A model generated the notes under the pieces. The model was not told the DNA's origin, searched no databases, and worked only from the letters and a program-made list of their open reading frames with translations. DNA of 18,065 nt from Chrysochromulina parva (taxonomy: Eukaryota; Haptophyta; Prymnesiales; Chrysochromulinaceae): positions 1 through 18,065 of the forward strand of contig PJAB01001029.1 in assembly GCA_002887195.1 (NCBI GenBank), in the 5' to 3' direction. Positions 6,165 through 13,344 of this stretch are shown here, in pieces; positions within the stretch are counted from its first letter, which is position 1, and the number at the start of each line of letters is the position of its first letter. The position numbers and the translations under genes are program-made.

Positions 6165-6294
6165 TCTCGTTCACATGTAATTACGTGCCCTGTCTCACAC
6201 TCGTACTCCGCACACAGTGCACCACGCGCGCACAAATCGCATGCGATCGGAGCGTGTCACGATGGGTGCGATAGTTGCTCGTCACGTGCGCGCT

Positions 6295-6366
6295 GTTGGG
6301 GCCGCCTCATCCGCGAGTGCGATCGAGGGGTCCGACCTTTTCACTGCGCAGACTCATCATCCCAAC
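6295..6366 (-). promoter_or_regulatory. Candidate SECIS element (form II) for the selenoprotein
   Basis: SECIS elements are 3' UTR hairpins that direct selenocysteine insertion at UGA in eukaryotes. Read on the minus strand, this stretch folds by inspection into: lower helix GTTGGG/CCCAAC (6 bp); an internal loop; the core ATGA on the 5' side opposite TGAG on the 3' side, giving the tandem G-A pairs; a 10-bp helix TCTGCG(C)AGTG/CACTCGCGGA with one bulged C and one G-U pair; an unpaired AAAA at the conserved A-A position; a mini-helix GGTC/GATC; and a 9-nt apical loop. This matches the form II plan. It begins 88 nt after the TAG of the gene with an in-frame TGA, the expected place. No folding program was run. 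Confidence 0.78.
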
Positions 6367-6454
6367 TCGTCGCCTCCTACAACGAGAGCCATCGCCAAGA
6401 ATGGTTCAATAGGTTTGGATTGCATCACGCTCTCGCGTCGCACGGGGCTAGCGC

Positions 6455-6865
6455 CTACTTCGGCTGTGTCGCGAGCCAGGTGCCAATCTTCGAGATCATC
6501 ATCAGCTGCTGCGTCTCAGAGGGGTACGATCTCTCAGAGGCCCCAAGCTGAGGAATTGTGTGGAGCACTTCGCCCGTGTTCTCAAGAACCACGGCGAGTC
6601 CGTCCGAGAGCGGCGTCGTTGCCTTCATGACGTCCACTTTGAGCTGCGACGACTGGAACTCTGATTCTAACTGGCCTGCAAGCCTGGTGGCAAGCTTCTT
6701 ATGCGGACCCCCTGATCAGCCGCCAGCTCCACCGACATACTTGATCGAGATGTGCGCCTGTACTGCAAGAAGCCGCGCAGAACCGCTGCGTGAATCGAGC
6801 GCTCGTCGGAGCGCCGGTGCTGCGCGCGCGCGCGCGCCGCCGCGATGCCCGAAAGCCGAGAGCAT
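6455..6865 (-). CDS. SelW/Rdx-like selenoprotein with in-frame TGA (Sec50)
   Basis: The reading frame runs from ATG 6865 to TAG 6455 with one internal TGA at codon 50 (6716-6718), read here as selenocysteine, giving 136 residues. The frame makes sense on both sides of the TGA. Before it comes a beta-strand and glycine loop, HISIKYVGGAGG; after it, SGGPHKKLATRLAGQLESEF, then LKVDVMKATTPLSDG and a strand pair LAVVLENTGEVLHT. This is the order of the SelW/Rdx thioredoxin-like fold (strand, redox loop, helix ending in EF, TP-x-x-x-G, strand with G-x-L/V-x-H). Residues 1-38 are Arg/Ala/Ser-rich and look like a mitochondrial or plastid transit peptide. The usual CxxU/CxxC is absent, and the protein has no cysteine at all. 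A candidate SECIS lies downstream. An in-frame TGA precedes the ATG. A shorter 60-codon frame after the TGA (from 6637) is the same gene seen without Sec. Confidence 0.8.
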
Positions 6866-7114: not shown

Positions 7115-7681
7115 ATGGCGGAGGCGCCGAGGGTCCTCGTGATGGTCGACCGGGACGCTCATCCTCACAAGTGGGCGACTGGCCTTGGCGGCACGGTCTG
7201 TCGTGAGCCGTGCTTCCTTGCTGTGAGCTGCTGCTTCTTGCCGTGCTCGAATGTCCTGCTGCGACGCGACGCGCTCAAAACTGTCGGCACGCCATATCGC
7301 TGCTTTCAACACGAGTTCTTGCCGTGCTGCGGCCGCTGCATTCCAGGGCAGCGGGCATGCCCCGCGTGCTGCCTGTGCCTAGAGGCCCACCTCTGCCCTG
7401 TGCACAGCGCGCTCGCCACGCGCCACATGATCCAAGACAAGTTTCAAGTGCGGCGCACCTGTGTCGAGCGCACCTGCATGGGGGCCCTGTGCATCTGCGA
7501 GCTTGCCACGTGCTGCTGTCCCAAGGACTCGTGCTTCCACGAGCTGCCGCATGCGCTCAAGCACTGCTGCCTGTGCTTCGTGTTGCCGTGCATGAATGCA
7601 CAAGGCCACCACCAGCTGAAGGTCGAGAGGCGCGGTGGCGGGCTCAGCGACGCACTTGTTCCAAGCGGCGGTCGGGAGTGA
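7115..7681 (+). CDS. Cysteine-rich protein of unknown function (26 Cys in 188 aa)
   Basis: A 188-residue intronless protein in which 14% of residues are cysteine. After a short N-terminal part without Cys (1-28), the cysteines come in clusters: CREPCFLAVSCCFLPC (29-44), CCGRCIPGQRACPACCLCLE (71-90), CVERTCMGALCICELATCCC (116-135) and CCLCFVLPC (151-159), with hydrophobic residues between them. The layout, including the CCxxCxPGQ segment and the xxxMIQDKF segment (104-110), resembles from memory an uncharacterised eukaryotic Cys-rich family found in protists, somewhat like PLAC8-type proteins; I could not check this. Such clusters could be palmitoylated, bind metal or form disulfides. The tail (165-188) is polar. 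ATG 7115 is the first ATG of the frame. The gene is divergent from the selenoprotein gene. Confidence 0.72.
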   Translation: MAEAPRVLVMVDRDAHPHKWATGLGGTVCREPCFLAVSCCFLPCSNVLLRRDALKTVGTPYRCFQHEFLPCCGRCIPGQRACPACCLCLEAHLCPVHSALATRHMIQDKFQVRRTCVERTCMGALCICELATCCCPKDSCFHELPHALKHCCLCFVLPCMNAQGHHQLKVERRGGGLSDALVPSGGRE

Positions 7682-8313: not shown

Positions 8314-10785
8314 ATGACGGACCCAAGCCGGCTGCCGAGCAGCATCGAGGAGGCACTCCAGCCATCTTCGGAAGCGCGGCTCATCACCGAGCCCAATGAA
8401 CCCTTCCGCATCGTGCACGTCAACGAGGCGTGGTGTCGCACCTGTGGCTTTGACGCCGAAGAAGTGCTCGGCCACACGTGCAACTTCTTGCACGGGCCGG
8501 GGACCTGCAGCGCGACGCTTGCGATGCTCAAGCAGGCGCTCACTCTCAAGCGCATGCTTGCCGTGCAGCTTCTCAATTACACGAAGACGGGCCGCCCGTT
8601 CATGAACACCTTGCAGGTGGCGCCGCTCTACAATCGGAACAAGGAGGTAACGCACTACCTCGGCATGGTCCAGGCGCGCTACCTGGATGGCAGCGGCGCG
8701 CAGGTGGCGCCCCTGGAGCAACGGGGCAGTGTCGCGGCCCCCACGGCGCCAATGATCGGCCTGCAGCCGGTCAACCAGATGCCTCGCCTGGCTAGCAACG
8801 CGGTCGCGGCGGCGACGGCCTCAGCCGGCAGTGGTCTTGGGGGCGGCCACGGGGGGATGTTCGGGGGCGGCCTCGGGAATGGTCACACGGGGCGGGGTCT
8901 GGGCGGCAGTCTCGTGGGCAGCGGTCTGGGTGGAGGTCTCGGCGGTCTGGGTAGTGGCTTCGGGGGTGGCGGCATGGGCGGTGGCTTCGGAGGGGATTCA
9001 TCCAGCCTGAAGCGCAGTCACGGCAGCACCTTTGCCGACGGTGGTTACGGCGCCTGCCGGAGCGGCAGCGCCGGCAGCAACACCTGCAGCATGACCGGAA
9101 TGGACAATGTGAGCGGCCGAAGCCTTGGTGGCAGCATGACTGGTGGCAGCATGACTGGTGGCAGCATGACTGACAGGAGCGTGGGCGGCAATAGTGGCAG
9201 CGGCAGCATGATGGAGGTGGACACGAGCGCGGCGGTCATGAGTATGGGCGAGCAGGACGATGACGAGTCGCCCGGCGGCGGCTGGCGCGTGCCACCCTTT
9301 TTGACGAAGCTGACCGAGATCCTCAGTTGCGAGACCTCCGATGTGATCTCCCTCAGCGACGAGGTCGCCACCTTCACCATCGTCGATCCGGCGCGCTTCG
9401 CCCGTGAGGTGCTCCCGTGCTACTTCAAGCACAACAAGCTCGGCTCCTTCTCGCAACAGCTGCACACGTACGGATTCCGGCGGCTCGGCCACGTCACGAC
9501 CGCGACCGATGCGCCCATCGAGTTTTGCCACGACGCGTACACGGGCGAGCCGGAAGACTTCATTGAGTGGATCCGCAATGGCGGCGCCGTCTCGAAACGT
9601 ACGATGCATGCGGCGCCACGGCAGCCCTCGCCGCCGCCGCCGCCCGCCGAGACGAGCACCGGGCCGCCGCCCCAGCTGCTCAACGACATGCTGCAGGTGC
9701 ATGAAGGCATGCGCCAGCTTGCATCCGCCTTCCAGCAGGCCAAGATGACACACGCCTTCCAGCTGCGCACCATCCTGCAGAAGCTCGTACAGAGCGGCCG
9801 GCTTGCCCCCGAGTCCGCCAACTACATATCCGCTATGCCACCCGCGACGCCCCTCTACGGACAGGCTCCACTCGCCGCTGCGCTCAGCGCCGGCTTGGGT
9901 GGCGGCCTCGGCGGCGGCCTGAGTAGCAGCTTCGGTAGCGGCCTCGGTGGCGGCCTCGGCGGCGGCCTCGGTGGGGGTATGGGCGGGTACCTGCCCACTG
10001 CGCTGCAGCAACAAGCCGCCTTGCAACGCGCGCAGCAGGCCCATGCGCCTGCGATGGGGGGGTCGATGGGGTACGGATCAAGTAGCTACGGCGCGAACGG
10101 CTGCGGCAGCTGCGGCTGCGGCCGCAGTAGCCATAGCGGCTCGGAGCTGGGCAGGAGCGGCATGGGCGGCATGGGCGGCGGCAGCTCGGGCGCCTACGGC
10201 AGCGGCGCCGAGTCGTTCATGCCGCTCAAGCCCGAGCCGCACTCCTCCCCACCCATGCGCGAGGGCTACTCCGCGCCCAAGATCAACGACAACCCGACGA
10301 TGGTGCGCCAGGCCTCTAGCGACGGGCTGCTCACGTCCATGCGCCAGTCATCGTCCGACGGGCATGCCTCCTCCTTGCCCCGCGGCATCCTCGAGGCCCT
10401 CGAGAGCTCGTTCGACGCGCTCCAGAACCCGGACGTCTTCGGCCTCACGCCCGAGCCCGAGGGCAGTGGCAGCCGCGAGGAAGCCTACCCCACCAACCTG
10501 CGCTACTCGCGCGATGGAGTCCTCTTCCACCCGGGCTCCATCTCGCTCGGAGGCGCGAGCCTCGGCGGCGTCTCACTCGACGGCGGCGGCTCCTCTGTCG
10601 ACCTGCAGGGCGAGGAAGCTCTCCAGCTGCTCGCGGGGGAGAAGGCGCTGCTCGCCTTTGCCGACTCGACGACCAACTACGAGCCGAGGCAGCCGCCCTA
10701 CCCTGTCGATGCCTCGCCGCATGGCGACTCACCATCCGCCGCCAAGCTCGAAGCCAGCGCCTCCTCGGCCTCGCAAAGCTCTTAG
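8314..10785 (+). CDS. LOV/PAS-heat shock factor fusion, putative photoreceptor transcription factor
   Basis: An 823-residue intronless protein with an unusual domain order. Residues about 20-125 form a LOV-type PAS domain: GHTCNFLHG (53-61) corresponds to the flavin motif GxNCRFLQ and keeps the photoactive cysteine (C56). LLNYTKTGRPFMN (86-98) keeps both asparagines (N88, N98) and GMVQ keeps the glutamine (Q120) that contact flavin. A Gly/Ser/Met-rich linker follows (about 170-300). Residues 324-425 are an HSF DNA-binding domain: VPPFLTKL, FTIVDPARFAREVLPCYFKHNKLGSF, then recognition helix SFSQQLHTYGF (378-388). Residues 456-495 have the heptad pattern of an HR-A/B trimerisation coiled coil. 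The rest is low-complexity (Gly-rich 527-557; QQQ; acidic/Ser tail), probably an activation region. An in-frame TGA at 8299 fixes ATG 8314 as start. I infer a light- or redox-responsive nuclear transcription factor, analogous to aureochromes (LOV-bZIP) but with an HSF effector. Confidence 0.88.
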   Translation: MTDPSRLPSSIEEALQPSSEARLITEPNEPFRIVHVNEAWCRTCGFDAEEVLGHTCNFLHGPGTCSATLAMLKQALTLKRMLAVQLLNYTKTGRPFMNTLQVAPLYNRNKEVTHYLGMVQARYLDGSGAQVAPLEQRGSVAAPTAPMIGLQPVNQMPRLASNAVAAATASAGSGLGGGHGGMFGGGLGNGHTGRGLGGSLVGSGLGGGLGGLGSGFGGGGMGGGFGGDSSSLKRSHGSTFADGGYGACRSGSAGSNTCSMTGMDNVSGRSLGGSMTGGSMTGGSMTDRSVGGNSGSGSMMEVDTSAAVMSMGEQDDDESPGGGWRVPPFLTKLTEILSCETSDVISLSDEVATFTIVDPARFAREVLPCYFKHNKLGSFSQQLHTYGFRRLGHVTTATDAPIEFCHDAYTGEPEDFIEWIRNGGAVSKRTMHAAPRQPSPPPPPAETSTGPPPQLLNDMLQVHEGMRQLASAFQQAKMTHAFQLRTILQKLVQSGRLAPESANYISAMPPATPLYGQAPLAAALSAGLGGGLGGGLSSSFGSGLGGGLGGGLGGGMGGYLPTALQQQAALQRAQQAHAPAMGGSMGYGSSSYGANGCGSCGCGRSSHSGSELGRSGMGGMGGGSSGAYGSGAESFMPLKPEPHSSPPMREGYSAPKINDNPTMVRQASSDGLLTSMRQSSSDGHASSLPRGILEALESSFDALQNPDVFGLTPEPEGSGSREEAYPTNLRYSRDGVLFHPGSISLGGASLGGVSLDGGGSSVDLQGEEALQLLAGEKALLAFADSTTNYEPRQPPYPVDASPHGDSPSAAKLEASASSASQSS
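8830..8996 (+). repeat. Glycine-rich imperfect repeat in LOV-HSF linker
   Basis: Reiterated GGC/GGT-rich triplets encode GLGGG/GFGGG/GMGGG variants between the LOV and HSF domains. The unit is irregular (about 9-15 bp), consistent with slippage expansion. The linker is probably flexible. Confidence 0.7.
9127..9171 (+). repeat. Exact 15-bp tandem triplication
   Basis: Three identical copies of GGTGGCAGCATGACT in frame, encoding (GGSMT)x3 at residues 272-286 of the LOV-HSF protein. Identity at synonymous sites points to a recent duplication. Confidence 0.9.
9886..9985 (+). repeat. Second glycine-rich repeat in LOV-HSF C-terminal part
   Basis: Repeats of GGCGGCCTCGG(C/T) encode LGGGLGGGL runs (about residues 527-557), similar to but separate from the linker array before the HSF domain. 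Slippage of the same sort of codon tract is likely. Confidence 0.75.

Positions 10786-11822: not shown

Positions 11823-13344
<1,522 letters not shown>

Follow-up and report, generated by a model that had tools for sequence, protein, structure and literature searches.

A predicted selenoprotein gene with a probable SelW-like fold and no CxxU motif in the haptophyte Chrysochromulina parva

In the haptophyte Chrysochromulina parva, positions 6865 to 6455 of contig PJAB01001029.1 (assembly GCA_002887195.1), read on the minus strand, are best explained, with considerable confidence, as a selenoprotein gene in which the TGA at codon 50 is read as selenocysteine (Sec) via a hairpin resembling a selenocysteine insertion sequence (SECIS), and whose product has a predicted SelW-like (Rdx) fold. 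The window is the whole stretch analysed, 18,065 nucleotides of this contig (contig C1029 of the 45-Mb assembly). When TGA is kept as a residue, the translation is exactly 136 residues long, with one TGA and a TAG stop, and confirms the continuous read-through protein described in a first-pass annotation made from the sequence. With table 11 the frame stops at codon 50 and contains no other stop. The first-pass annotation named no strand; its frame is real and belongs to the minus strand, and the plus strand of the interval has several stops in the frame translated. The protein has no Cys residues, and the residues around the TGA are YVGGAGGUSGGP.

Conserved coding sequence flanks the in-frame TGA on both sides in proteins from other contigs. 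The relatives are 49 database proteins at E<=1e-3, pooled from three protein searches; three of them (P0003, P0005 and P0006) end right before the Sec codon and 42 start downstream of it. P0005 and P0006 (78% identity over 36% of the query) retain SIKYVGGAGG up to their end, at the GGAGG just before the TGA codon. P0004 (59% identity over 54% of the query) and P0007 (50% over 51%) begin past the TGA. With conservation on either side of it, the frame is more than a chance reading. P0002, which lies on another contig, is 95% identical across the whole query and spans the Sec codon with W; it also has W at an in-frame TGA further upstream in the window, so its gene call evidently translated TGA as Trp. 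P0047 and P0050 have upstream extensions which cannot be aligned to the query. P0049 (E=4.7e-17) has GGC at the Sec site. As the homologue with Sec or Cys at codon 50 that the first-pass annotation called for, P0049 leaves a doubt of one residue: its Cys pairs with Sec when Cys is substituted for Sec in the query (score 141), and falls one residue later when Sec is masked (score 133). The three ends before the codon, the 42 starts after it, the W of P0002 and the GGC of P0049 suggest that the family is largely of the Sec type, with probably one Cys member, and we infer that the stop codon of the truncated relatives is TGA. The viral contigs and GTDB genomes searched yielded no relative. Two short open reading frames (ORFs) with FEVVLSTGEVLHSK or FEVTLSTGEVLHSK, P0056 and P0059, counted as doubtful relatives, appear intermediate between SelW and the GGAGGU family.

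The start codon is supported by P0005 and P0006, whose similarity to the window is strong once the Met is reached (local score 189 each) but weak upstream of it (13 and 30). Upstream of the Met, P0002 (125) and, less so, P0003 (27) also resemble the window. Residues 1-37 include 7 Arg and 1 Asp, with no Lys or Glu; judged by composition, this Arg-rich N-terminus is like a mitochondrial or plastid presequence, and the protein may be targeted to an organelle.

The SECIS-like hairpin consists of an outer stem, AUGA, a stem of 10-11 bp, AAAA, a small apical stem and UGAG, with 98 bases between the stop codon and the UGA of the quartet. Of the SECIS rules set out in section 27 of PMC2375036, those on spacing and energy were applied, and the hairpin agrees with them. 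The descriptor used for scanning was built from generic SECIS rules after the candidate had been seen, and its restriction to ATGA was added after the known loci had been seen, so the background rate is a guide and gives no formal P value. There were nine ATGA-type sites on both strands of 200 kb of the genome (20 stretches of 10 kb), one of them as stable as the candidate, and exactly one such site lies past the candidate stop. Matches of any TGA type numbered 41 per 400,000 strand-bases; a looser first scan had given 5 in the 36,130 strand-bases of the window, the candidate among them. Of the 15 recognised selenoprotein loci of the genome, 11 have an ATGA-type site no more than 1,200 nt from the domain match, counting a weak one at L009 (-11.9). 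The descriptor found none at L004, L013, L014 and L031; at L014 there is a hairpin that lacks the outer stem, and at L004 one that lacks the AA. Alignment of seven SECIS elements with MAFFT left the cores unaligned. The 5' word AUGAUG is common to the SECIS-like elements of L007, L008, L012, L015, L030 and L032; the window candidate also has it, with a shifted register in which the second AUGA fits the spacing.

Three genes of the Sec machinery were sought in the genome. tRNA-Sec (anticodon TCA) and SepSecS are clearly present, and the eEFSec domain reaches 25 of 27 bits, below the cut-off. One in-frame TGA is found in all four Rdx matches (two SelW and two SelT), in 8 of 11 GPX matches and in 3 of 3 Sep15/SelM matches. 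Genome-wide recoding of TGA can be ruled out: there is no stop inside 57 of the 58 chlorophyll-binding (LHC) domain matches or inside any of the eight AhpC-TSA_2 matches, and 5 of the 7 larger window ORFs, which are without internal TGA by definition of the ORF listing, end in TGA. The AhpC-TSA_2 search was aimed at SELENOU-type genes, and none of its 8 matches has a TGA. The one LHC match with an in-frame TGA is G000:C1675:2019-2600.

The models, in which Cys stands for Sec, show a thioredoxin-like beta-alpha-beta-beta-beta-alpha fold closest to SelW, and SelW/Rdx structures rank top when the predicted models are compared by fold, as the order of elements proposed in the first-pass annotation implied. 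Sec would lie in the loop joining strand 1 to helix 1. As to common descent, profile comparison with Rdx gives a moderate probability of 55-61 (global 44), above all controls. A SelW-like fold is likely, as far as predicted models can tell. The protein is not a SelW as defined, because CxxU is absent and the profile cut-off is not reached. There is no CxxC/CxxU motif past strand 1, where YVGGAGGUSGGP is found instead, and no scanned relative crosses the curated Rdx cut-off, which the SelW of the genome itself does cross. Of the earlier name, SelW/Rdx-like, the likeness in fold is supported and membership of SelW is not. With the SECIS-like element, the Sec machinery and other selenoproteins of the genome, the relatives which break at the codon and the fold comparison, the earlier proposal that this TGA encodes Sec is supported, and the 6865-6455 product is very likely a selenoprotein, as predicted.

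Several results weigh against this reading. Model confidence is lowest in the Sec loop (below 50 at domain residues 11-15). Plain Foldseek gave nothing at E<=0.001, its list being made up of thioredoxin-fold, complex I and mitoribosomal chains. The profile search proposed earlier gave no match: a Pfam scan of the 136-residue protein (P0001) found no family at E<=10, Rdx included, and the 100-residue domain drew chance-level names only (SPATA6 0.15, folB 0.13). P0028, the best clear relative, scores 19.0 Rdx bits against a cut-off of 22.6, and the doubtful P0056 and P0059 score 17.7 and 18.1. Direct comparison with the genome's own SelW is insignificant, and both the global register against Rdx and the P0049 Cys at the Sec column were obtained with Sec entered as Cys. 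The relatives were compared as proteins only. The folding energy of the 91-nt hairpin region is ordinary (48 of 200 shuffles fold equally well). A covariance model trained on a pair of SelW SECIS elements scored that pair alone; it missed the candidate and, equally, the other known loci, and was dropped. Rfam SECIS_1 is silent on the hairpin, but it also has zero matches genome-wide at E<=10, so its silence on the window is uninformative.

It is improbable that a short intron removes the TGA to leave an ordinary protein. An intron-like span is easy to find: of the in-frame GT...AG spans in the ORF, 41 include the TGA and would keep the frame open; one of 57 nt (GTATGT...ACCAG) opens with a donor-like GTATGT, joins in frame and deletes YVGGAGG(TGA)SGGPHKKLAT. 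However, this span encodes residues conserved elsewhere: P0049 has P-x-K-x-x-A-x-x-L in common in an ungapped stretch, the P0047 alignment begins at KKFASAL, and P0005 and P0006 keep the residues leading up to the TGA. The Rdx fold needs the deleted loop and helix start, and the downstream hairpin would be left unexplained. We give a similarly small chance to a true stop at the TGA, with the downstream part a separate protein of 57-75 residues from an internal ATG. ORFs of just this kind are listed in databases, such as P0009 (57 residues, 62 contigs), but the ORF starts of 41 relatives are scattered over projected domain positions 18 to 57, as expected if the first usable start past a stop is taken. 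Such a fragment would have no strand 1 and little of helix 1, and P0049 runs on upstream through the GGC.

Less probable still, and very unlikely, is a pseudogene or a sequencing error that turned a Cys or Trp codon into TGA. One stop in one contig would look alike, and third-position GC is 0.63 before the TGA and 0.72 after it, compared with 0.76-0.82 in four other window genes. However, the break recurs at this codon in relatives on other contigs (P0003, P0005 and P0006 end there, and P0002 has W), the frame has no further stop or frameshift, and the sequence past the TGA is conserved across a wide family.

The gene can be set beside known selenoproteins. Mouse SelW (SELENOW, structure 2NPB) has the loop YCGAU; the loop of the window protein, YVGGAGGU, is longer, with V replacing Cys and no CxxU. 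The window protein further differs from SELENOW in having no Cys, an N-terminal extension, a C-terminal QLMMISKIGTWL helix and no Pfam Rdx score. To the Rdx family (PF10262/TIGR02174; SelT/SelW/SelH) the window family has remote profile similarity, without the CxxU/CxxC signature. The genome's own SelW and SelT (L003-L006) are, like the window gene, selenoproteins with an in-frame TGA, and L003, L005 and L006 have a SECIS shortly past the stop with the same build as the candidate; these four keep C-x-x-U (CGAU, CSSU, CMSU), whereas the window protein does not, and its similarity to the genome's SelW is beyond the reach of BLASTP. Among the SELENOW proteins described in PMC7539508 are UxxU forms from Ostreococcus lucimarinus and amphioxus. 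These likewise depart from CxxU, but keep two reactive residues where the window protein has one.

In the proposed mechanism, the hairpin, in the presumed 3' untranslated region, would help to decode the TGA as Sec, placing it in the glycine-rich loop that joins strand 1 to helix 1, the site of CxxU in SelW. As there is no Cys in the protein to resolve Sec, the selenol would act alone, in a one-selenol cycle with an outside thiol: it may turn into a selenenic acid, or may bind glutathione or a client in a mixed selenosulfide, and an external thiol would then reduce it in the one-cysteine (monothiol) style. Monothiol glutaredoxins, which belong to a different family and differ in sequence, have one reactive Cys and no resolving partner. 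They may serve as a working analogy for a lone chalcogen, theirs being Cys and that of the window protein a predicted Sec.

Table 1. Coordinates of the predicted gene and its associated elements in the window
Feature	Position	Strand	Basis or remark
Selenoprotein CDS, 136 aa, predicted Sec at residue 50	6455..6865	minus	stop TAG 6457-6455
In-frame TGA, codon 50, predicted Sec codon	6716..6718	minus	read as W in P0002; P0049 has Cys there or one residue later
N-terminal 36 residues, Arg/Ala-rich, resembling an organelle-targeting presequence	6758..6865	minus	composition; similarity to P0005/P0006
Rdx/SelW-like domain, residues 37-136, predicted beta-alpha-beta-beta-beta-alpha	6458..6757	minus	models with Cys replacing Sec
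Type-II SECIS-like hairpin, outer stem GUUGGG/CCCAAC	6291..6372	minus	folding and descriptor scan
5' SECIS quartet AUGA	6354..6357	minus	fold/descriptor
Apical unpaired AAAA, 12 nt past the quartet	6338..6341	minus	fold/descriptor
3' SECIS core UGAG	6306..6309	minus	fold/descriptor

Other ORFs are found in the window. In a single plus-strand ORF (8314-10785) with long glycine-rich stretches, a PAS domain (PAS_9, E=2.1e-12) and an HSF DNA-binding domain (E=2.3e-16) occur together, which joins a sensor domain to a heat-shock-type transcription factor. A Cys-rich ORF of 188 residues (7115-7681, plus), on the strand opposite the selenoprotein gene, has no Pfam family at E<=0.01. In the GAPDH ORF (11823-12773, minus), the match to the profile of the N-terminal domain does not start until position 39; an upstream exon is thus probably outside this ORF. 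Outside C. parva, in the phylum of G001/L020 (an Anaerolineales record), 96 of 201 genomes have Rdx domains; many of the Rdx matches listed there have one TGA, at the CxxU place in most of 30 loci (L054-L083). A plasmid search with SelW found none.

Gene callers routinely truncate Sec genes, and databases show the whole family almost exclusively as pieces that lack either the head or the tail. A literature search found no paper naming the family, and the motif letters matched no paper; the search did not extend to the supplements of PMC7539508 or to its selenoprotein database, SPDB. According to that paper, SPDB holds 42 selenoprotein families, one of them called 'Hypo', and the family may stand unnamed in the supplements. 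The variant is possibly new, and possibly a new family. The chances are about even that the gene is the first to be described from a widespread eukaryotic family of Rdx-fold redox selenoproteins with one selenol (GGxGGU, no cysteine, organelle presequence), unannotated since callers truncate almost all its members at the UGA. If the reading is true, a SelW-fold protein without the CxxU partner or any cysteine would let the action of a lone selenol in this fold be tested cleanly in a natural protein, and phytoplankton would need more selenium on account of it.
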